From the IMG/VR virus record IMGVR_UViG_3300010233_000314, positions 590-22,114 of that record: a stretch of 21,525 nucleotides of DNA. One strand, 5' to 3'. The position numbers and the translations under genes are program-made. The first letter of the stretch is position 1. The number at the start of each line of letters is the position of its first letter. This DNA comes from a virus. A model generated the notes under the pieces. The model saw only the letters and a program-made list of their open reading frames with translations, ran no database searches and was not told where the DNA came from. Positions 1-21,525 of the stretch are shown piece by piece.

Positions 1-189
1 AGACGATAGCAAATAAGGCGATAGTGTTTTTTGTGCATCAGCATAACGCTGCTCATTTAAAGCCTGCGCTGCTTGCTGTGCGGCAGTTAACCGCTTGCCT
101 GATTTATTTGTAGCATTCTTGGAAGCATCAGCATTTGCAACACCGGCGATTGCTGTTCCAGCACCTACGGCAACATAACCCCATGTCAT
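1..189 (-). CDS. Probable DNA-ejection / internal virion protein, N-terminal 63 codons (runs off window)
   Basis: The open frame starts with ATG at 189-187, overlaps the stop of the cupin-like gene as ATGA, and is open to position 1. The visible part begins with a small, Gly/Ala-rich segment (about residues 4-22) and continues into an Ala/Gln-rich helical stretch containing AQALNEQRYADAQKTL and then SPYLL. That layout, together with a position right after the DNA-stabilisation and cupin-like genes, resembles the start of podovirus ejection proteins such as P22 gp7. That protein also has an Ala/Gln helix followed by a LKPFxPL-type motif. The resemblance is a family impression rather than an alignment. 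Only the N-terminus is visible, so an unrelated structural protein remains possible. Confidence 0.5.
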   Translation of the reverse strand, partial: MTWGYVAVGAGTAIAGVANADASKNATNKSGKRLTAAQQAAQALNEQRYADAQKTLSPYLLSS

Positions 190-632
190 TGCACACCCCC
201 AAGCGCTTTGCGGTAGAAAGTTAAAAAATCTACATATTCAGAAAATGGCATGATTATTTCTTCCTCAATTTTCTGCAAATCGGTTTCATTGGTAAGGTGG
301 TAGGTAGTCCAGCAAGTATTTTCATTAGCATAAACAACACGCTGAACTCCAGCCGGAGAAACAAGCGTTTTATGCCCAACATGGCGCTCAACTCCAGCGA
401 ATGTAGCGACACAAATATCACCATAAGCGATAGTGTTTAAATGCGAGTGTTTATGAACTTTCCCGACGATAGTTGCGCCTTTTGGTATGAACATTTCCCG
501 CGCATACATGCCAGGAGCAAAATGGTGTGTAACGGGGTATTCTGTAATTTCATCGGGAGAGAAAGACATCATCTCCAACATAAGACGAAGAATATTATCG
601 GCGCGGTTTATTTCATGGATTGCGATATTCAT
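186..632 (-). CDS. Cupin-like phage protein of unknown function
   Basis: This 148-residue protein has a single predicted beta-barrel of the cupin type. It shows a GKVHKHSHLNTIAYGD stretch (His60, His62, His64) resembling cupin motif 1, then VSPAGVQRVVYANENTCWTTYH (split here around residues 91-112, with His112) resembling motif 2. Such His clusters normally hold a metal. ATGA overlaps join it both to gp10-like upstream (629-632) and to the ejection-protein candidate downstream (186-189), so it is translated as part of the late operon. Small cupin-like proteins are common in phage structural clusters but their role is not established. An enzyme, a virion component and a small-molecule sensor are all possible. 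No signal peptide or membrane segment is seen. Confidence 0.6.
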   Translation of the reverse strand: MNIAIHEINRADNILRLMLEMMSFSPDEITEYPVTHHFAPGMYAREMFIPKGATIVGKVHKHSHLNTIAYGDICVATFAGVERHVGHKTLVSPAGVQRVVYANENTCWTTYHLTNETDLQKIEEEIIMPFSEYVDFLTFYRKALGGVQ

Positions 633-2044
633 ATCATGTCGCTCATTGGTATATCGATGCTGTAAATCTGTATCCTTACGGGATCTGTCGCGATTAACTC
701 GATCGCAAAATCTTTATGACGAACCAATCTGCCAAAGTTTCTAAGCGCTACACGCTTGCGATAATCACCCTGCGTGCCAAGCTCAACATCCGAGTGATTT
801 ATCCAATTATACCCGCCATCTTTGGTGTATCTTACCATTAATTTAGGTGACACTGTTGGGTCTTCAATCTGCCCAACTTCCATATCAATCTCTATTTTGG
901 GGATAGTGATATCGTAATCAAAGCTAATGCCGGTGCTGCGATAAGTCGATCTTAGTGTCTCGGTTCCTTCTTTTTTTGCAGCAGGATCAAGCAGCCACAT
1001 AGTTGAAGAAATTCTGTCGCCAACAATAATTTTCCCGTTGAAAATCTCACCCGAATTAACGCGCCAGAATCCAATATTTTCTGACTCCCGCACATGGGTT
1101 AGTCCGGTGGTTAAGTCGTAGCCCCACGTATAACCTTCAGTCGGGAAAGTTATGTAATAAATCTTGTGTGTTGGGGTATCAACGAAAAAGCCTATTGCGT
1201 CTTCGGTGGTAGTAAACCCGGGTGAAGTTGCGGTTCCATTGCCTCGAACTTTAAGGTTAAAATTCAAATCTGAAATGACAGTCGCAGCATTTCCACTAAC
1301 CAATCTGACAGTAAGATCGTCAGCAAGAAATGCAAAGTATTCGCCAGCTTCGGCGAGTGAACTTTTGGCTTGAATTCCGCGCTCAATGGTAGAACCCCTA
1401 ACCTTTCGGATTGGCAGAACCACGTCATCGAAGCTTTGCCAGAACTCCATTGTCTGGCTTCCGATAACCCAAAGAGATGATTTTTTGGCAATAATTGACC
1501 TAACAAAGTCCGGAGACTCTTCCGCGCTTGCAAACGTCAACGGGTTATAGCTAAATCCGTCCGATACATCAGAGCCGAAAAACTCATTAGTGCCGTCTCG
1601 AACAAACCAGAAGCGCTCGTTTAAAACAGTGCCCGAAGTGGTAGCAAAGAAATCAGAGTCGGTTATTTTAACCAGCCCAGCATTGTTATAAATCCAGCCA
1701 TCGCCAGCGCCATTTAAAAAGAAAATTTGATTGTTTCCTGGTACCGAGTTTGAAAGAACCTGACCAAATCCTATGCCGCCAATGACACCCAAGCTCTCAC
1801 TTACGCCGGTGCGACTTACCCTATATGCATTTGTGTCGCTGATAAAATACGCATACCCACCATTAACAAGGATATTAGAGCGAGTTGCTCCCAAGGCTGT
1901 GCTGAATGAGGTTAAACCATCACAGCGCTTCACACAGCTATAGTTTTGATCCTTGTCAGCCTCGGCAATCATATTAATAAGCATTGCACGACTTTTCTTG
2001 CTGTCGAAGTTTGCCCCACTGCCGCCCAATGGAATGCTAGCCAC
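629..2044 (-). CDS. P22 gp10-like packaged-DNA stabilisation / tail hub protein
   Basis: This 471-residue protein has almost exactly the length of P22 gp10 (about 472). Its N-terminus (IPLGGSGANFDSKKSRAMLINM) has the arrangement typical of that family: a short Gly/Ser loop followed by an N-[ML]-I/Y segment. The rest is beta-rich with repeated aromatic strands (FGQVLS, GDGWIYN, SLWVIGSQTMEFWQS), as expected for the beta-propeller-like hub. In P22, gp10 sits below gp4 and closes the portal after packaging. The start is GTG at 2044-2042, overlapping the stop of the adaptor gene by 8 bases. A GGTGA ribosome-binding sequence lies 6 bases upstream, inside that gene. The position after the adaptor and before the ejection protein agrees with the P22 gp4-gp10-gp26 order. 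A needle (gp26) homologue is not visible. Confidence 0.78.
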   Translation of the reverse strand: MASIPLGGSGANFDSKKSRAMLINMIAEADKDQNYSCVKRCDGLTSFSTALGATRSNILVNGGYAYFISDTNAYRVSRTGVSESLGVIGGIGFGQVLSNSVPGNNQIFFLNGAGDGWIYNNAGLVKITDSDFFATTSGTVLNERFWFVRDGTNEFFGSDVSDGFSYNPLTFASAEESPDFVRSIIAKKSSLWVIGSQTMEFWQSFDDVVLPIRKVRGSTIERGIQAKSSLAEAGEYFAFLADDLTVRLVSGNAATVISDLNFNLKVRGNGTATSPGFTTTEDAIGFFVDTPTHKIYYITFPTEGYTWGYDLTTGLTHVRESENIGFWRVNSGEIFNGKIIVGDRISSTMWLLDPAAKKEGTETLRSTYRSTGISFDYDITIPKIEIDMEVGQIEDPTVSPKLMVRYTKDGGYNWINHSDVELGTQGDYRKRVALRNFGRLVRHKDFAIELIATDPVRIQIYSIDIPMSDMI

Positions 2045-2966
2045 GATGAGTCACCAATCTAATAGGGAACATTTCCGTATCAAAGCTAAGTGCCAAATCA
2101 AGGCTATCTTTCGCCATTTGTTGGATCATTGCGGCACGACCCTGAGAGCAACCAAATTTCGGAATTAATCGCAAAGCCAAATTGTAAATAAATGCTTCAA
2201 ACCAATAATCAGGTATATCGAAACTATCGGTACCCAAGTTAATGACTTGTATAGCGCGCTCATACGTGAAATTAATTGCGTACTCAGACGTTGAAGGAGT
2301 TGGCCACAAATACATAACGCCTGGATCGCGCTGCCTTGAGAAATAAGCCTGTATTGGGCTTCCCGTGCTGGATTTATCAGGGAAATTGAAATAATCCTTA
2401 CGAGATTCGAATGCTATGGGTATTTCGTAAGTGCTGGATTCTCTGCGGCGCACATCTAAAATGCGCTCAACTGGAATGAAGGAAGATGCAGCATACACTC
2501 TTACTTTTGCGCCTGAAGCAGCAGCAGAAGGCAGCGCGACAGCTATAGTTACTGTGGTGGATGTTTTTGATAAAACCGTAAACCAATGCGTAACTTTAGA
2601 ATCAAGAACAATACCAATAATATTGGTCGCAGCCATATTTGAAGTGTCGGTACAGCTTAAAATTGTTTGGCCAAGCGCTTCAGCAGCCGACAACGTAGTT
2701 TCGTACCATGTATTAGCAAGATTCGCGGTTGAAAAATTATACTCAGCCTGACTTTTTACAGTGAATAGCGTGCCTTCTTGCATAGTCCACAGGTGAATAC
2801 CTTGCCCAGTCCACGCCTTAATCATGAAGTTAGCAGTTCTTCGGCATCTAACAAGCGAATCGCCCGACAAAGTCTCGCCATCTTGCCCAATTTGCAACTG
2901 GTCAAGCGCTTCTTCAGCGATATCATTAAAGTTAACCAATAATCTGTAAGTTCCTGAGACTGTCAT
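2037..2966 (-). CDS. Probable head-to-tail adaptor protein (gp4-like N-terminus)
   Basis: This protein has 309 residues. The first 60 or so are helical and contain DIAEEALDQLQIGQDGETLSGDSLVRCRRTANFMIKAWTGQGIHLWT (described in pieces: an EEALDQLQ helix, an acidic-Gly turn, then a RCRRTANFMIKAW helix). This is the pattern of podovirus head-tail connector subunits, in which a first helix is followed by a second helix ending in AW and LW. The remaining two-thirds is beta-rich with a C-terminal helix (YNLALRLIPKFG). It lies directly upstream of the gp10-like gene, which is where an adaptor is expected. It is longer than P22 gp4 (166 residues). Start ATG 2966-2964 overlaps the preceding stop as ATGA. 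The assignment rests on position plus the N-terminal pattern. Confidence 0.55.
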   Translation of the reverse strand: MTVSGTYRLLVNFNDIAEEALDQLQIGQDGETLSGDSLVRCRRTANFMIKAWTGQGIHLWTMQEGTLFTVKSQAEYNFSTANLANTWYETTLSAAEALGQTILSCTDTSNMAATNIIGIVLDSKVTHWFTVLSKTSTTVTIAVALPSAAASGAKVRVYAASSFIPVERILDVRRRESSTYEIPIAFESRKDYFNFPDKSSTGSPIQAYFSRQRDPGVMYLWPTPSTSEYAINFTYERAIQVINLGTDSFDIPDYWFEAFIYNLALRLIPKFGCSQGRAAMIQQMAKDSLDLALSFDTEMFPIRLVTHRG

Positions 2967-4697: not shown

Positions 4698-5128
4698 TTA
4701 ATGACCCATCCTAATTCAGTATATTCTATGGAAATTAAATCGTATGCATGGTGAATAATTATGTTCGACTGGCCATTTATCGTACCCACTACAGTGACAT
4801 TAAAATTTCCAGTTGGCTGAATAGAAACTTTTTCGCGGTACTTTGGCAAGGCGTTTAATATGATCGAACAAGCCGCTGATACATGTATTAACTCATTGCC
4901 AATAGTGGTGTAATTTGATGCAACGGTGTGTACGTAAATATCATCTTGTGTTGAATATGGAAAAGGCGCTATAGATAAAGTTGTTGTATTTGTTGTATCA
5001 GTAATTGGGGGAGCGCCCTCACCGCCCAATGCATTAATCAGCTGATACCACGCATCCTCAAAATAAGCTGTGGCGTTGCCATCATTATCAACGATCGGCA
5101 GCGACCGCAGCTCCAGGAGATCAGCCAT
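4694..5128 (-). CDS. Small structural protein with LPIVD-type N-terminus
   Basis: This protein has 144 residues. Its start, MADLLELRSLPIVDNDGNAT followed by AYFEDAWYQLINALGG, follows the pattern LPI(V)-D-x-D-G-x-x-T-x-x-F-x-x-x-W that I recognise from N-termini of phage appendage or tail-fibre-associated proteins, where it probably docks to the virion. The rest (about 55-144) is beta-rich and resembles the short domains that follow such anchors (SIAPFPYSTQDDIYVH, KVSIQPTGNFNVTVVG). The ATG at 5128 overlaps the upstream stop by 8 bases, and the TGA overlaps the next ATG. It is likely the docking partner of the neighbouring beta-rich proteins. This is inference from position. Confidence 0.55.
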   Translation of the reverse strand: MADLLELRSLPIVDNDGNATAYFEDAWYQLINALGGEGAPPITDTTNTTTLSIAPFPYSTQDDIYVHTVASNYTTIGNELIHVSAACSIILNALPKYREKVSIQPTGNFNVTVVGTINGQSNIIIHHAYDLISIEYTELGWVIK

Positions 5129-5519
5129 TACGAACTTTAATAATCAAGGTACCAGACGTACCGGCAGAGCCAAATCCATTGGTGCTAAATAAAATATTGC
5201 CATTGCCATCAATACCAGACTGATCTTTAATGCCGCCATAGGGATTAAAGTCATTCATGGATAATTGGCTATGCAGTGTCCAAGCCAAGCTTTTTTCAGT
5301 TACGCCAGTATCAAATAATAATTGTGCGTCAAAATCTGCAAAATTATATTCGATGCCTTCAATAGCCAGTCGAGCCTTAGTCGTTAGTCCAAGCATTGCT
5401 GGAGTAATTAATATTTCATTACTCAGCTCGCCGCTAACTCCATCACTAACAAGACCAATAAGATAAATTGATCTTGCAGTGCCTGCCAGCAGCGGTCTTA
5501 CTGTGACAGTATGGGCCAT
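5121..5519 (-). CDS. Small beta-rich structural protein, unknown function
   Basis: This 132-residue protein begins MAHTVTVRPLLAGTARSIYL and ends with a Gly/Ser-rich strand region (FGSAGTSGTLIIKVRNG). It contains no cysteine and no membrane segment. The ATG (5519-5517) overlaps the upstream TAA by one base in a TAATG junction, so it is coupled to the 173-residue gene before it. The composition matches the virion proteins on either side. I recognise no named family. A capsid or tail decoration role is inferred from context only. Confidence 0.55.
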   Translation of the reverse strand: MAHTVTVRPLLAGTARSIYLIGLVSDGVSGELSNEILITPAMLGLTTKARLAIEGIEYNFADFDAQLLFDTGVTEKSLAWTLHSQLSMNDFNPYGGIKDQSGIDGNGNILFSTNGFGSAGTSGTLIIKVRNG

Positions 5520-7122: not shown

Positions 7123-8025
7123 TTAGGTGCCGCTACCCCATGCACAGCGAGGATCTGTAAAGCCGTAAGACTTATAGAACATACCCTTAGTGCGGAAGTT
7201 TTCAGTACCGAAATCATTGTCCTGGCTGAAGGTGTAGCCCATACGTTCAAAGATTTTAAATCCATCTTCTACGTCAGTTTTGATAAACCAGTTAGTAGAT
7301 GAGGTAAATCTGTGATTTACGTGGATGCCACCGCTGAAAATGCCAGCAACCGGGTTGACAGTTGCCACATTTGCTGTATTTGGCTCAAATGAACTCTTGT
7401 CGATACGCTGGGCAACAAAGCGCAATTGGCGTGGGATGTGAAGAGAAACGCCTTTAGCGTCAATCAGCAATCCAGCACCATCACGGAAGTCTTCAAGCGC
7501 AATCAATGCATCTTCAACAGCTGCCTGGCTCAATGCAGTAAACACAGAGAAACGGTTGGCAAACGTGCCGCCCTTACCGAGCAAATGCGCAGTAGAAAAC
7601 AATGGCACGCCATCCATTGAATCGTTGTTTGTGTAACCTACGTTAATCACGTTTGCCGCAAGCTGCTCATCGGTATGCACAAGTGAACGCTTAATCCACT
7701 TACCAGTGGTTTGGATTAAATCTTCATACTTGTTATTCATTTGAGCTTCCATCGTAATGATGCCGCCCAATGAATAAACCGCGTGAGTATAGTTACGCAC
7801 GAAGTCTTGCTTTGAATCATCGTAAGTTGTGCCGGTACCTTCAGGCTTTAACGCCGCGAGACCACCATTCGACACGGCAACATCAAGCTCGTAAGCTTTA
7901 CTAGATGACATGGTTTTAAAGATCTTGTCTTTTTCCATCGGAAGATCTTTGTAGTAATCAGTTGCTACGGCATTAACACCTTCTTGGAGTAACCGAGCTT
8001 TTGAACCTTGTGTATTAATACTCAT
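7123..8025 (-). CDS. Major capsid protein (HK97-fold type)
   Basis: This 300-residue protein lies after the scaffold and decoration genes and is followed by a terminator-like hairpin, which is the usual setting for the most highly expressed head gene. The sequence has an N-terminal arm, an ELDVAVSNGGLAALKPEG segment consistent with the E-loop, a helical segment (EDLIQTTGKWIKRSLVHTDEQ) like the spine helix, a PLFSTAHLLGKGGTFAN motif also common in Mu-like and other HK97-fold capsids, and a C-terminal beta region ending in the MFYKSYGFTDPRCAWG segment. It is shorter than the P22 coat protein (430 residues), so the head module is not simply P22-type. The ATG lies one base after the upstream stop with GGGAG nine bases before it. 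Confidence 0.8.
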   Translation of the reverse strand: MSINTQGSKARLLQEGVNAVATDYYKDLPMEKDKIFKTMSSSKAYELDVAVSNGGLAALKPEGTGTTYDDSKQDFVRNYTHAVYSLGGIITMEAQMNNKYEDLIQTTGKWIKRSLVHTDEQLAANVINVGYTNNDSMDGVPLFSTAHLLGKGGTFANRFSVFTALSQAAVEDALIALEDFRDGAGLLIDAKGVSLHIPRQLRFVAQRIDKSSFEPNTANVATVNPVAGIFSGGIHVNHRFTSSTNWFIKTDVEDGFKIFERMGYTFSQDNDFGTENFRTKGMFYKSYGFTDPRCAWGSGT

Positions 8026-8026
8026 G

Positions 8027-8629
8027 TTAACTTACTCCCAATGTTGCGCGGTCATCGCTTAAGTTGATTGACACAATCCAGTCGGCATAATCACCGAGAG
8101 TATTGCCAACTTTAGGCTCGACATAATGTAAGCGCAGATGAAGGGTGTTGGTGGTGTTGGCAGTGCTAGAATCTATTTCCATTCCAGACATACCAGTAGA
8201 GGTATTGCCAGCCGCCACAATAACATTGGCATTTGTTCCGGCTGAAGTAATGGCAATGTTTCCGCCTTCAGAATCTTCTTGAATCGAGTAAAGAACGTCA
8301 TCACCCCATGCAACGTATCCATAACGCAATGTTGAAGCGCGACGATAATTGGAAGCAGAAAGGGAACCTTCGTTTGTGGTATCTGGCTCAAGCGATATAA
8401 GAACGCCAACCATGATGTCGCCAGCTGCGGCTTGAGCTACTGCTGGCACTGTGCCGTCAGCAGAAGCATTAGCATCAAGCTTTACAAAATCTTTAATGAA
8501 AGTTGCTGTGTTATTTGAAGCGAGAAAACATACGCGGCGAAGCTTTCCATTCCAATCTGCACCGGACATGGTGCCAATTGGTGTTGCGCCTCTTACAACA
8601 TCGCGATTTGCGGGAACTGCTGCGGTCAT
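8027..8629 (-). CDS. Probable head decoration / capsid-associated protein
   Basis: This protein has 200 residues and lies immediately upstream of the capsid gene (one base apart). It is Ala/Thr/Ser/Gly-rich with few helices. The first half (KLRRVCFLASNNTATFIKDFVKL, then GDIMVGVLISLEPD) and second half (LRYGYVAWGDDVLYSIQEDS) have the strand pattern of small capsid-stabilising proteins that precede the major capsid gene in many tailed phages. A very strong AGGAGGT ribosome-binding site six bases before ATG 8629 predicts high expression, as expected for a protein present in hundreds of copies. The family name is not certain, and a head fibre is the main alternative. Confidence 0.6.
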   Translation of the reverse strand: MTAAVPANRDVVRGATPIGTMSGADWNGKLRRVCFLASNNTATFIKDFVKLDANASADGTVPAVAQAAAGDIMVGVLISLEPDTTNEGSLSASNYRRASTLRYGYVAWGDDVLYSIQEDSEGGNIAITSAGTNANVIVAAGNTSTGMSGMEIDSSTANTTNTLHLRLHYVEPKVGNTLGDYADWIVSINLSDDRATLGVS

Positions 8630-8720: not shown

Positions 8721-8745
8721 TAACTAGGTACTCTTGACCTAGTTA
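8721..8745. repeat. Perfect 9-bp inverted repeat between head genes
   Basis: TAACTAGGT (8721-8729) and ACCTAGTTA (8737-8745) are exact reverse complements with a 7-base loop, and overlap the stop codon (8739-8741) of the 173-residue gene. No run of T follows in either direction, so it is not a classical intrinsic terminator. It may be an RNA-processing or stability hairpin that separates scaffold-region mRNA from the decoration/capsid mRNA. The rest of the 109-base gap (8630-8738) holds the strong ribosome-binding site of the next gene and a short ACACA/TGTGT dyad. Confidence 0.5.
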
Positions 8746-9260
8746 GATTTGATCTGATTATAGCCTTTTCCGGTGCCAACTGGCAAGTTTGCTGCATATG
8801 ATTGAATTCCGCCGCCACCGACAAGTGAATCTTCAGCAACTCTACCCTTGAATAATGCGTTGTCGATATCTTCTAGGCGCTGGCGTTCTGGGCCGTGCTT
8901 GTACTCATCGTATAATTCTGGATCCATCATTAACCCGAAAGCGTAATAGGTATCACCACCCTCAGTCTGTCCGGCAGCAAATCTAACCCACTGATTTCCT
9001 GACTTATCATTCAGGCCCTCATACGTTTTACGACCTTCTATTTTTGCCGGGATAGGCTCTGCACCAGCATCAAGCCAGCGCTGCAAATCACCATCAAGAT
9101 CATTAATAAGCATTAGTTTTTTATTAGGATATGCATCAATGTAAGCTTGCATGTCCATTTTCATTTGAATGCCAATATTACGGCGGACTTTCTTTCGTCC
9201 ATCAAGCAATAATCCATTTTCAATGATTGGCTGGCGAATATTGTTTCTGTGGTGGCTCAT
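8739..9260 (-). CDS. Head-operon protein of unknown function
   Basis: This 173-residue protein follows the scaffold stop with only a one-base gap, and has AAGG eight bases before ATG 9260. It is hydrophilic, with a basic N-terminus (RHHRN-like start, then GRKKVRRNIGIQ) and a central KIEGRKTYEGLNDKSGNQW segment. The C-terminus is Gly-rich (residues about 147-173) and probably disordered. The gene has codon use like its neighbours. Proteins of this size between scaffold and capsid genes occur in related phages without known function. A head-assembly role is inferred from position only. Confidence 0.55.
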   Translation of the reverse strand: MSHHRNNIRQPIIENGLLLDGRKKVRRNIGIQMKMDMQAYIDAYPNKKLMLINDLDGDLQRWLDAGAEPIPAKIEGRKTYEGLNDKSGNQWVRFAAGQTEGGDTYYAFGLMMDPELYDEYKHGPERQRLEDIDNALFKGRVAEDSLVGGGGIQSYAANLPVGTGKGYNQIKSN

Positions 9261-9261
9261 A

Positions 9262-10143
9262 TTAATTACCTTTCAGTAAATTTTCGGCGAACATTTTTGC
9301 AGCGCCAGGACTTGTTTTCAGTAGACTGTTGTAAATATCAAGAGCCGCATCTTTGTTTTGGCTTGAAGCATCTACAACTTTGTAGCCCCTCAATTGCTGC
9401 GTAACATCTACAGCTTTTGAAGCTGGCACAATTTTGCCTCTTGGTGGAGCGCCGCGGTTAATCTTCTGCGAAACGAAGCGTTCTGGATAAATTGACTTTA
9501 CTCCCTCCATTGCACTTCGCAAATAACCCTTAATAGCAGCTTCACTCAAAACATCATGAGCACCAACCCCATCAGCTTTTAGCTTACCGTTATAAATCCG
9601 CTGAAATTCTGATTTAATTTCAGGCGATTCAAGTATCACATTGTCTTCGATGAAGCCAGAAATAACAGGATGCTCGCGTCTTGCTTGCTGCTTTGGTGCG
9701 TTATTAAGTTCGTGAAGCTGATTAGTTGCATCAAGTGCAGCATCAACATCACCAACCTCTTTGGCCTCACTGAGAGCGGCCTCAAGTTCGCGACGATGCC
9801 TTGCCTCTGCTTTAGTCTCACGCTCGGCAATAGCCTCAACAGTGGCCTTGAGTGTTTCGGCCATGCCTTTAACGCTGGTTTTTAGTTCTTTTACTTCCTG
9901 GATGCGCTTGTACTCTGCCTCATAGGCCTTGCGGCCTTTGAATTTTTCAGGGTCACGGCCTTCAGCTATCCATTGTTCGTAGGTTTTTAGCCCTGGAGGT
10001 GCTTCGTCATGCTGTTCTTCTTGATTATTTTCATCAAGTTCGCTATCAACGTCAGCAAGATCATCTTCTTGTTGATCGTCAACCATTTCGTCTTCTGGAT
10101 TATCGCTCTCATATTGAGCTTTTAACGCTGCTAAATCAGTCAT
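9262..10143 (-). CDS. Scaffolding protein (P22 gp8-like type)
   Basis: This 293-residue protein is close to P22 gp8 in length (303). The N-terminus is strongly acidic (residues about 14-48, DDQQEDDLADVDSELDENNQ), a Lys/Glu/Ala-rich coiled coil follows (about 78-150), then a mixed segment and a Lys-containing C-terminal helix region. This acid/coil/helix layout with almost no cysteine or tryptophan is typical of capsid scaffolds. An upstream in-frame ATG exists at 10167, but AAGGAG lies 7 bases before ATG 10143, so that start is preferred. The start overlaps the stop of the co-chaperonin gene by 8 bases. The position between portal and capsid supports the call. Confidence 0.78.
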   Translation of the reverse strand: MTDLAALKAQYESDNPEDEMVDDQQEDDLADVDSELDENNQEEQHDEAPPGLKTYEQWIAEGRDPEKFKGRKAYEAEYKRIQEVKELKTSVKGMAETLKATVEAIAERETKAEARHRRELEAALSEAKEVGDVDAALDATNQLHELNNAPKQQARREHPVISGFIEDNVILESPEIKSEFQRIYNGKLKADGVGAHDVLSEAAIKGYLRSAMEGVKSIYPERFVSQKINRGAPPRGKIVPASKAVDVTQQLRGYKVVDASSQNKDAALDIYNSLLKTSPGAAKMFAENLLKGN

Positions 10144-10582
10144 TTTCATACTCCTTACGTTCGTCATCAGTTAATAGATTTTCATCGTAAACGCAAAGAG
10201 GATCTTCATCATTGCAGATTTGATAAAAGAAGCCAGACCCAGGCGGCTCCTCTTGTCTTTGCCCTGCATACCGATTGAAGCCAACAACATCGCCAACTTT
10301 TACCCATGGGCCGCCATCGCGCAGGTCGCCAGAATATGCACCCTTGCCAACACTACAAACAATTGCGTAATTTGACCCGCGTGTTTCTTTTTCAGTTTGC
10401 GCATCAGATTGAGCAACAAATCCAGCAGCAGCTAAAGTTGCATACCTTTCTGATTCTCCAGCTTTTAATTCGCTAGTACTTGGAAGCGCAAATACTTTAA
10501 TGCGATACCCTGCCGCCTGAGATTGCTGAGTAGCAATTATATGTTGGGCACGCTTAATTTGATCTTCATTGGGCTTTAACAT
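10136..10582 (-). CDS. GroES-like co-chaperonin (phage-encoded)
   Basis: This 148-residue protein matches the GroES (Cpn10) plan. A first strand, GYRIKVFALP (residues 25-34), is followed by a polar stretch in the place of the mobile loop (about 35-55). Then come a KETRGSNYAIVCSVGKGAYSG region (65-85), corresponding to the G-x-V-x-A-V-G-x-G segment, VKVGDVVGFNRYAGQ (94-108), corresponding to VKVGDxVxFxxYxG, and YQICNDEDPLCVYDE (120-134), corresponding to the final strand with E/D-x-D-I/L-L. It is longer than bacterial GroES (about 97 residues), with extra residues at both ends. The start chosen is ATG 10582 with GGAG eight bases upstream. An upstream frame extension to 10651 lacks a site. Such proteins work with host GroEL in capsid folding, like T4 gp31. 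Lying between portal and scaffold genes, it probably helps fold the capsid protein. Confidence 0.75.
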   Translation of the reverse strand: MLKPNEDQIKRAQHIIATQQSQAAGYRIKVFALPSTSELKAGESERYATLAAAGFVAQSDAQTEKETRGSNYAIVCSVGKGAYSGDLRDGGPWVKVGDVVGFNRYAGQRQEEPPGSGFFYQICNDEDPLCVYDENLLTDDERKEYEND

Positions 10583-10793
10583 TTGACTTCTCCACCATTC
10601 CGTAACGATTAAACATAAGCTCGAATGCGCCTGCAGTAATACAGCCGTCAATCTGACCCATTCGGCGTGATATTCGTGAAAGCGTTAGGTCTGCATTGGA
10701 TTCGTCAACACAGGCACCAGAGTTGATTTCGTCTTGCACGTCCTCAACCTGCCATTTGAGGCACTTGATTAATACTTGGGTCACTGGATCCAT
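10566..10793 (-). CDS. Small protein overlapping the portal 3' end
   Basis: This 75-residue frame starts at ATG 10793 with AGGTGG 11 bases upstream, inside the portal gene. It overlaps the portal by 50 bases and overlaps the co-chaperonin start by 17. An upstream start at 10856 (96 residues) would overlap the portal more and is less likely. The sequence begins MDPVTQVLIKCLKWQVEDVQ, then an acidic segment and a SRRMGQIDGCITAGAFELMFN segment. It looks amphipathic and globular. The region 10583-10743 is otherwise empty, and the tight overlaps favour a real gene. No family is recognised. Confidence 0.6.
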   Translation of the reverse strand: MDPVTQVLIKCLKWQVEDVQDEINSGACVDESNADLTLSRISRRMGQIDGCITAGAFELMFNRYGMVEKSNVKAQ

Positions 10794-12894
10794 CAACCAT
10801 AGATCCACCTGGATCTGGGTTACTTGTGGCTCCAATAGGGAGTTGTTGTGCGGCATTAGTTCCTCCTTCGGAACGTATGAATGTACTTTCTACTAGTTTA
10901 ATGGCATCCATTCCATTCAATCCCATCTCTACAGCAAGCTGCAAAGATTCCATATACAGTTTGGTGATCTCTGCCTCTTGCTTATCGGCGTTTAATCCCA
11001 TAGCGGTCATTTCTTTGGCGGCTTCCATAGCCATTTTTTGTTGCTGCAACTTCTGGCCTTGCGCCCTAAGTGCTTGGTCTGTTTGCTTCAGCTCAGCTTC
11101 ATGAGCCTTCTCAGCTAAAATCAATTGTTCTTGCTTAGATGGTGGCGCGTTAGGATCGGCTTCAGGCGCTAACTTGTCGATGTTCTCGGTGCGGGTTGCC
11201 TTAAGTAGATCAAGCGTAGCCTCGCGGATATTCATAACTTGAATACCGGCGCCAGCCTGAGCCATAGCTAGCTGTAGATTGGATTCTGCACGCGCAACAC
11301 GCTCAATTGTCGAACCTTGAGTTGGGTTTCCGGCAATCGCAACATCACAATCTTCAGGATTAAAGTCATCTTCCATCACATATTCTTTTTGCTCATCGAG
11401 TACGCGATTATATTTTTTGCTATCGTGATATCTATAATTTAGGTAATGAATCTTTTTAAATTCATTCCGTGCGGCAGCGTATACCCTCATGATAATAGCA
11501 TTAGATCCCTGCAAGGCTTGCTGCAGTCGCGCGAGATATAGGCTTGCTGCTTCGCCAGGATTAGCCTCGACATTAACACTTGCGTTAGTCATAGACCGCG
11601 CTGAGTCGATCATGTAAGTCATTAGCTGGAATAGAACAGGTGACGGTCCTGCGAATGGCATCTGCACGATGTTGTCACGCAACGAACCATTGATCCCACC
11701 CATATTCACGGGGGTTAATTGTCCCATCATAACGTCGATAGGTCCGGTCTCTTGGCGATTGCCACGACCAGCGCCAACGCCAGCAGTTATAAGCCCGGAG
11801 TTGGCCGCAGTTACAGATAGCGTTCCAGAGTCAAGTAGTTGGCGTATATTAGTATTAATTGCGGTAAACATTGGCCCAAGCAGAATGCCCCAACCCATGC
11901 CCATTGGGCCGCCTTCTGGATCAGGCAAGAATCTGTATTGAGTGAAGCAGTCAGTGGCTTTAATCTTGACCACTTTGCCTTTGTCATTGAAAACAATAGT
12001 GTCATCATCATAAGCAGGATATAGGCAAACAATCTTCTGTTCTTCTTCGTGTAATATCGCGTAATAAGGCTCTGCAATACCATCATCATCCAGGTCAATG
12101 CGAACGTAAGCTTCGATAAAGTCAAAGTCTTGCTTGTCTTCTTCCAGCTTGTCCTCATCAATATCCCATTGCTGTTCGCCGCGAATGTAAGCAATTAAAT
12201 CATTGCGGCTTACATTAATATTCTGGAAAACGCATGGCGCATCTTCGAAGTTTCGGCAATTCATATTGAAAATAACTTTGTCCGCGCACACTAGCTCGCT
12301 GCGAATAATCTTCTCTTCGTAATCCCAGTAGGTTTTCTTATATGCGGTGCCAACGCAAGGCAGCATCATCAAACACTTGTCTTGATCATCACGCCAATGG
12401 GGGATGTCTTCTGATAGCTGCCAGTTTGAATACTCCGATACGCGATCAACACGTGCAGCCTTGGATTCTTTCATCGAATCATCAGCCATTTGCTGCTCGC
12501 CTGGCGATATACCTGGCAATTTAATATCCTTACCATAGGTTTTGAATGTAACGATATCATCAGCCCATACTAACTCTGGTGCTGCACGAGAATTAAAATC
12601 AAGCATTGCCTCAAGGATATAAGGCATCATCGCAAGGCTTGCACCTTGGAACGGGAAGCTCTTTTCTTCTATGTCATGCCCGCCAGAGGTTGGCTGTAGT
12701 TTGGCGAGTTTAATTGCAGCAGTATATTTCTTGATCCAGTCAGCCATTGAAGCAACAGCTTCATCATAGAGCTTTTTGACGCTGACGAATTCTTTGGAGT
12801 TATCTTTCAATTGGTCAACGATATTGCCTTTCTCAAGGTTATCAATTAATACGCTTGGCGGATTATTGTCTTCGTCTTGATCGTAATCACTCAT
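10744..12894 (-). CDS. Portal protein (P22 gp1 type)
   Basis: This 716-residue protein has the length of P22 portal (725). Characteristic regions are the N-terminal wing (FPFQGASLAMMPYILEAMLDF, about residues 80-100), the acid-rich segment FDFIEAYVRIDLDDDGIAEPYYA, and the conserved core GMGWGILLGPMFTAINTNIRQLLDSGTLS (quoted here as separate short pieces: GMGWGILLGPMFTAIN and NIRQLLDSGTLS). A long Gln/Lys/Glu-rich helical region at about 584-675 matches the C-terminal barrel helices of long portals. The portal forms the dodecameric ring through which terminase pumps DNA. It follows the terminase and precedes the scaffold, as in P22-like phages. The ATG overlaps the zinc-ribbon gene stop as ATGA. 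Its own ribosome-binding site is weak, so it depends on coupling. Confidence 0.85.
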   Translation of the reverse strand: MSDYDQDEDNNPPSVLIDNLEKGNIVDQLKDNSKEFVSVKKLYDEAVASMADWIKKYTAAIKLAKLQPTSGGHDIEEKSFPFQGASLAMMPYILEAMLDFNSRAAPELVWADDIVTFKTYGKDIKLPGISPGEQQMADDSMKESKAARVDRVSEYSNWQLSEDIPHWRDDQDKCLMMLPCVGTAYKKTYWDYEEKIIRSELVCADKVIFNMNCRNFEDAPCVFQNINVSRNDLIAYIRGEQQWDIDEDKLEEDKQDFDFIEAYVRIDLDDDGIAEPYYAILHEEEQKIVCLYPAYDDDTIVFNDKGKVVKIKATDCFTQYRFLPDPEGGPMGMGWGILLGPMFTAINTNIRQLLDSGTLSVTAANSGLITAGVGAGRGNRQETGPIDVMMGQLTPVNMGGINGSLRDNIVQMPFAGPSPVLFQLMTYMIDSARSMTNASVNVEANPGEAASLYLARLQQALQGSNAIIMRVYAAARNEFKKIHYLNYRYHDSKKYNRVLDEQKEYVMEDDFNPEDCDVAIAGNPTQGSTIERVARAESNLQLAMAQAGAGIQVMNIREATLDLLKATRTENIDKLAPEADPNAPPSKQEQLILAEKAHEAELKQTDQALRAQGQKLQQQKMAMEAAKEMTAMGLNADKQEAEITKLYMESLQLAVEMGLNGMDAIKLVESTFIRSEGGTNAAQQLPIGATSNPDPGGSMVDGSSDPSINQVPQMAG

Positions 12895-20986: not shown

Positions 20987-21525
20987 ATGAAAAAGAAAGC
21001 ATACCGCTATAGATTTTATCCAAATAAAGAACAGGCTTTAATGCTTGCAAAAACATTTGGCTGCGTAAGATTTGTATATAACACTATACTAAAATACCGA
21101 ACAGATGCTTACTACTCATCAAATGAAAAGATTAATTATTATGCCGCCAGCGCCAAACTGACTTTACTAAAAAAAGAAATAGGTAAAGAATTTTTAAATG
21201 AGGTATCGGCAATCCCTTTGCAGCAATGTTTGCGGCATCAGCAGCAGGCCTTTTCTAATTTTTTCTCTTCAAGAGCCGGTTACCCATGCTTTAAAAGGAA
21301 ATCATCCGCGCAATCAGCGGAATTCTCAAAAGCAGCTTTTTCATTCGCTAATGGGGAGATTACACTAGCGAAGCAGAAACAGCCTCTAAAAATTAAATGG
21401 AGCAACAAGCCTCCATGCCATCCAAGCACAGTAACCGTAAGCCTTGATAGCTCAGGGAGATACTTCGTATCCTTGCTGTGCGATTTTGACATAGCAGAAA
21501 AGCCAGTTACTTTGAATAAAATTGG
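20987..21525 (+). CDS. tnpB: IS200/IS605-family TnpB (OrfB) RNA-guided nuclease, N-terminal 179 codons (runs off window)
   Basis: The frame starts at ATG 20987 and is open to the window end. The N-terminus, YRYRFYPNKEQALMLAKTFGCVRFVYN (shown here in two parts: YRYRFYPNKEQALML and FGCVRFVYN), is the typical helix-turn-helix start of OrfB proteins. PLQQCLRHQQQAFSNFF (78-94) and GYPCFKRK (98-105) are the usual L-Q-x4-L-x2-A-x3-F and G-x-P-x-FK-x-K motifs. A beta-strand wedge region follows (about 112-170). The catalytic Asp/Glu residues of the RuvC domain and the zinc finger lie beyond the window. TnpB cuts DNA guided by an RNA made from the right end of the element. No tnpA is visible in the window, so this may be a TnpB-only (IS1341-type) element. 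There is no strong ribosome-binding site. Confidence 0.88.
   Translation, partial: MKKKAYRYRFYPNKEQALMLAKTFGCVRFVYNTILKYRTDAYYSSNEKINYYAASAKLTLLKKEIGKEFLNEVSAIPLQQCLRHQQQAFSNFFSSRAGYPCFKRKSSAQSAEFSKAAFSFANGEITLAKQKQPLKIKWSNKPPCHPSTVTVSLDSSGRYFVSLLCDFDIAEKPVTLNKI

Follow-up and report, generated by a model that had tools for sequence, protein, structure and literature searches.

A likely phage GroES-type lid with an extended mobile loop, encoded in a head-gene cassette

Our analysis identifies a 148-amino-acid phage protein that very likely is a GroES-family co-chaperonin and that is encoded within a tightly packed head-gene cassette (Table 1). The gene lies in a stretch of viral DNA of 21,525 nucleotides ("the window"), which forms part of the 22,114-base IMG/VR virus record IMGVR_UViG_3300010233_000314. 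Both its place in the cassette and its co-occurrence with one capsid type make it likely that this lid folds a phage head protein on the GroEL of the host. We therefore favor, with good confidence, a phage GroES/Cpn10 co-chaperonin that caps host GroEL and folds head proteins, most likely the capsid protein, in the way gp31 serves gp23.

Table 1. Head-cassette genes and related features of the window (L numbers denote related loci).
Feature	Position	Strand	Evidence and remarks
GroES/Cpn10-like co-chaperonin gene, 148 aa	10136..10582	-	stop codon 10136-10138; PF00166, PHROG 3188, AF2 model, Foldseek and VIA
Extended mobile-loop region	10381..10503	-	approximately residues 27-67: long N-terminal arm, G-F-V-A (54-57), C-terminal arm
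Conserved 96-aa ORF between portal and GroES	10566..10856	-	kept in L001, L002 and L006; dN/dS ~0.19
Portal protein, SU10-type, 716 aa	10744..12894	-	PF23899 E 7e-11; PHROG 1216 portal
Scaffold-like acidic protein	9262..10143	-	probable start 10143; counterpart directly downstream of GroES in 135/137 loci
173-aa cassette protein (orf173)	8739..9260	-	conserved in L001, L002 and L006
~200-aa protein directly before capsid gene	8027..8629	-	117 homologous ORFs in related loci; PHROG 37556, unknown function
Major capsid protein, 300 aa, 33.0 kDa	7123..8025	-	PHROG 133 C-terminal half E 5e-6; GenBank relatives annotated major capsid protein
SU10-type adaptor	2037-2966	-	PF24175

The GroES homologue is located exactly where the first-pass annotation had placed it, and it is encoded on the minus strand; a plus-strand reading of 10136-10582 was ruled out, as stops occur all along it. 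The predicted product has a mass of 16.3 kDa and a pI of 4.7. A Shine-Dalgarno-like GGAGAAG precedes the ATG, the stop overlaps the ATG of the scaffold-like gene by eight bases (ATGACTGA), and the scaffold-like gene has its own AAGGAG ahead of its start. Given such tight overlaps and Shine-Dalgarno-like sites, the GroES gene looks like an ordinary member of a packed operon.

Pfam returned a single match (PF00166 Cpn10, E 5e-5, 23.6 bits versus a curated cut-off of 21.1), as did PHROGs (PHROG 3188, 'co-chaperonin GroES'), and a phmmer search against PDB sequences recovered GroES entries weakly (3nx6, E 2e-4). Cpn10 was also the only Pfam match in 36/36 diverse relatives (best E 3e-14), and a profile of these 36 sequences matched several bacterial GroES, Cpn20 and mitochondrial Hsp10 in the PDB at E 2e-6 to 2e-18. 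By these sequence comparisons the evidence is modest for the single protein and strong for the family, and homology to Cpn10 is well beyond chance. Profile searching thus agrees with the original assignment: the best matches are Cpn10/GroES, and no virion protein matches better.

The fold leads to the same identification. A single-chain AlphaFold (AF2) model, computed from an alignment of 36 sequences (mean pLDDT 77), contains the GroES barrel as judged by Foldseek and VIA. The top Foldseek matches were all Cpn10/GroES (E 3e-5) and T4 gp31, and VIA aligned 73 residues with 3nx6 (Z 9.7, rmsd 2.6) and 74 with gp31 in its GroEL complex (2cgt; Z 9.2, rmsd 1.7). Among viral models, the first matches were co-chaperonin GroES of uncultured viruses. 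VIA also listed enzymes of the quinone oxidoreductase type (Z 4-6), which are known to contain a GroES-like barrel; these matches reflect that barrel and were rejected as a rival identity. The roof segment, counted from VG to KVGD, is 15 residues long in the window protein and 15 in E. coli GroES, so the roof has not been deleted, unlike in gp31. Of the terminal extensions proposed in the first-pass annotation the N-terminal one is real; the C-terminal tail is variable, as the close relative L002 is almost without it.

The mobile loop departs most clearly from bacterial GroES. Between the same anchors, the barrel strands are separated by 41 residues in the window protein, 24 in E. coli GroES and 29 in T4 gp31 (all three counted by hand; gp31 sequence from AF158101), making the loop of the window protein about 17 residues longer than that of E. 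coli GroES and 12 longer than that of gp31. A length of 41 is also found in L006 and L002; the Alcaligenes phage has 36 and pelagiphage-type relatives have 28-29. Most of the extra residues lie ahead of the docking motif (23 in the window protein versus 11 in GroES and 15 in gp31). The lengthened N-terminal arm recurs in the Alcaligenes phage, L086-L089 and L091, often as D-E-V-Y/F-x-x-A-K-x-x-G. In the window protein this arm is modeled as a helix at low confidence (pLDDT ~57; loop pLDDT ~57-61).

In GroES, the tripeptide Ile25-Val26-Leu27 docks on GroEL. The segment AAAGFVAQSDAQTEKETRG of the window protein pairs with SAGGIVLTGSAAAKSTRG of E. coli GroES (fine placement by eye), which brings G-F-V-A to the place of G-I-V-L. 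Among the relatives, the loop glycine is kept in 30/36 and the residue following it is I, L, F or V in 36/36. The mobile loop had been described as changed, and it is indeed longer, but the docking motif has been kept; the loop is accordingly extended and not replaced. Where GroES has Leu27, the window protein has the less hydrophobic alanine of G-F-V-A, which counts against reading the protein as a GroEL lid. A conserved hydrophobic docking motif would be unneeded in a purely structural protein. It is very unlikely that a Cpn10-fold protein has here given up its work with GroEL and turned into a head-assembly part, such as a portal ring or procapsid factor. Such a conversion would fit the fixed place between portal and scaffold-like genes, the extra N- and C-terminal segments and the many ring proteins at phage necks; it does not fit the distant MW202601 and vir526, which encode Cpn10 elsewhere than between portal and capsid.

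On the minus strand of the window, the genes run from small terminase (PF20901) through, large terminase (PF17289/PF03237), portal (79 kDa), 96-aa ORF, GroES, scaffold-like gene, 173-aa gene, 200-aa gene and capsid gene, with the adaptor further on. The GroES gene was originally placed between portal and scaffold genes. It does adjoin the scaffold-like gene; it does not adjoin the portal gene, from which the 96-aa ORF separates it. This ORF overlaps the 3' end of the portal gene by 113 bases in another frame and the GroES gene by 17 bases. The overlap with the portal gene recurs in L001 and L002, though not in L006, where the two genes are separate, and its recurrence suggests that the common stretch may code twice. 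The scaffold-like product, which has no family match, is presumably the scaffold, and by its position the ~200-aa protein would be a decoration or head protein. Portal and adaptor are both of the SU10 type (PF23899, PF24175), which points to a short-tailed phage. Elsewhere in the window, 186-632 (minus strand) matches the PHROG 'short tail fiber protein' (E 6e-37) and 'tail fiber adhesin', and 20987-21523 (plus strand, opposite to the phage genes) is the start of an IS200/IS605 OrfB/TnpB-type gene (PF12323, E 2e-20) cut by the window end.

The cassette arrangement is widespread. Searches with GroES queries gave 152 loci besides the window, each with a GroES match, and grouping at 55% identity yields 17 clusters. 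Since the set includes many closely related loci and a few repeated fragments of the same contigs, clusters and not loci are the fair count. The scaffold-like gene follows GroES immediately in 135 of the 137 loci with enough sequence, a capsid gene lies no more than 3.5 kb downstream in 108/108 and a portal gene no more than 4 kb upstream in 91/105. All 17 clusters contain the portal - GroES - scaffold-like - capsid cassette. To avoid selecting on GroES, a second survey, of IMG/VR, started from the capsid alignment alone and counted those loci in which the sequence ahead of the capsid gene exceeded 3.3 kb. Here the GroES gene was present in 49/49, ending 1.8-2.3 kb before the capsid start. Also, GenBank phages whose capsid protein is at least 36% identical to that of the Alcaligenes phage carry it in 18/18. 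In two more distant relatives with 27% capsid identity, MW202601 and the methanogen virus vir526, the Cpn10 gene is found outside the portal-to-capsid run; MW202601 had been considered as the same cassette without GroES, which was rejected, as Cpn10 sits elsewhere in its genome. In vir526 (L155, BK063670.1; a tailed virus assigned to the archaeal Methanomicrobiales) a 10-kDa chaperonin gene lies at 1027-1383 near the terminase, and downstream of it a capsid of distant relationship is encoded. The original idea that the phage has a GroES homologue positioned to serve capsid folding is strongly supported by profile, fold, fixed position and the 49/49 co-occurrence taken together.

The survey numbers also bear on a more general role. 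A general-purpose GroES supplement would work with host GroEL on many phage and host clients without a special tie to the capsid, and its place in the head operon would serve only late, strong expression. In its favor, the Cpn10 fold and the docking motif are kept, and gp31 is able to replace GroES for host clients (PMC6318259). Against it, the gene accompanied this capsid type in every locus of the survey that started from the capsid, and it stays next to a scaffold-like gene across 17 clusters at less than 55% identity; we consider a general supplement unlikely.

All 12 phage or virus records that were searched whole, some of which are perhaps incomplete, contain exactly one Cpn10 and none contains a Cpn60/GroEL, so the partner is presumably the GroEL of the host. 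For the dedicated head-protein lid that we favor, we infer the following course. Seven copies would form a ring, which would cap host GroEL, the phage bringing none of its own, and would dock through the G-F-V-A of its long mobile loop. Made together with the head proteins, the lid would fold them, its main client most likely being the major capsid protein.

The first-pass annotation had further suggested that the changed loop could enlarge the folding chamber for the 300-residue capsid protein, as in T4. This part is not supported by our data. T4 gp23 (~56 kDa) slightly exceeds the capacity of the GroEL-GroES cage and is thought to need the enlarged cage of gp31 (PMC6318259). At 33.0 kDa the capsid protein of the window is well under gp23, so the rationale of a larger chamber does not apply to it, and the roof segment is of normal length. 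Neither cage would hold the 79-kDa portal protein. Host GroES could in principle suffice for folding a 33-kDa capsid protein, and this counts against our preferred explanation.

The lid gene has an evolutionary history of its own. When the GroES gene of the window is compared with those of its nearest relatives, dN (0.12-0.37) is far below dS (2.9 or saturated), which indicates purifying selection. Compared with L002 (GroES at 5001-5411), it is the fastest-changing gene of the cassette, with 59% amino acid identity against 77-94% for the other cassette genes, and DNA identity between window and L002 falls inside GroES. With L006 as outgroup, informative sites in GroES place the window with L001 (7:0:1), whereas those in the 96-aa ORF (0:7:0) and the 200-aa gene (1:5:0) place it with L002. 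In this small sample, the conflicting groupings and the drop in identity suggest either that related phages have exchanged the lid gene or that it has changed rapidly in L002. The idea that GroES and capsid alleles were inherited together, apart from the flanking genes, was considered and found unsupported, informative sites in the capsid gene being 1:1:1. In the sub-group formed by the window, L001, L002, L006, the Alcaligenes phage, L086-L089 and L091, the extra, possibly helical N-terminal loop arm of ~7-12 residues might make an additional contact with host GroEL or raise the lid. The lid gene would then be the component of the head cassette that is exchanged to match the host, in keeping with L002, where it has diverged much further than the adjacent genes and its grouping conflicts with theirs. 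This extended scenario is tentative and we assign it a low probability.

Another history would be that of a passenger (auxiliary) gene of recent host origin without a fixed role. GroES-like genes occur in many phages, and a published list of genes in variable genomic islands includes GroES (PMC6487183). The deep divergence from host GroES, with a signature of its own (A-Y...P-W-C-K-V-G-D), purifying selection and core status in HTVC023P-type phages (PMC9599517) all speak against it, and the 49/49 co-occurrence largely refutes it; we regard a passenger as extremely improbable. Recent capture from a host was likewise rejected: the GenBank matches searched were all phages, and a scan of genome contigs, weak as it used one strict pattern only, found no relatives.

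Our results describe one widespread type of head cassette that always keeps its own GroES-type lid although its capsid protein fits the ordinary cage, in phages of SAR11, roseobacters, Caulobacter, cyanobacteria and Alcaligenes and in many uncultured relatives. Why a 33-kDa capsid protein needs a private lid is now a testable question, for example in Caulobacter phage RW, which infects a laboratory organism, and the extended loops are natural variants for studying how GroEL is recognized by its lids. The HTVC023P-type pelagiphages count co-chaperonin GroES among their 13 core genes (PMC9599517), and it also occurs in the CRP-901 roseophages (PMC10149686); a paper on a siphovirus GroES remarks on earlier examples from myo- and podoviruses (PMC4294664). 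In the open-licence literature we found no description of a capsid-linked rule or of the extended loop, nor did a search there turn up virion proteomics for such phages.

The window protein is best seen as a member of this already known phage GroES family that carries an extended loop. HTVC023P/HTVC027P-type pelagiphages and their relatives (including phage 023Pt_psg01, Roseobacter phages CRP-901/902, Caulobacter phage RW, Planktothrix phage Pag-Yong1 and Alcaligenes phage vB_Af_QDWS535) share the family and the order portal - (small ORFs) - GroES - scaffold-like - x - ~200 aa - capsid, but their GroES is only ~25-32% identical to that of the window, and the pelagiphage-type loop is near normal (~28), with the Alcaligenes phage intermediate. 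Bacterial GroES (E. coli; Xanthomonas 3nx6) has in common with the window protein the barrel, the length of the roof segment, the K-V-G-D-x-V-x-F strand and the docking motif of the loop; the window protein differs by its ~17 extra loop residues, an N-terminal helix of ~20 residues and an acidic C-terminal tail. T4 gp31, the known phage lid of the GroES type (PMC6318259), resembles it in its lengthened loop, in the structural alignment (Z 8.6-9.2) and, probably, in serving as a phage lid for host GroEL in capsid folding. In contrast, identity in the structural alignment is only 16-19%, gp31 is without roof loops (PMC6318259) and the roof segment of the window protein is not shortened, and gene 31 is neighboured by ligase and small unrelated genes and by no head genes, whereas the GroES gene of the window resides in the head cassette.
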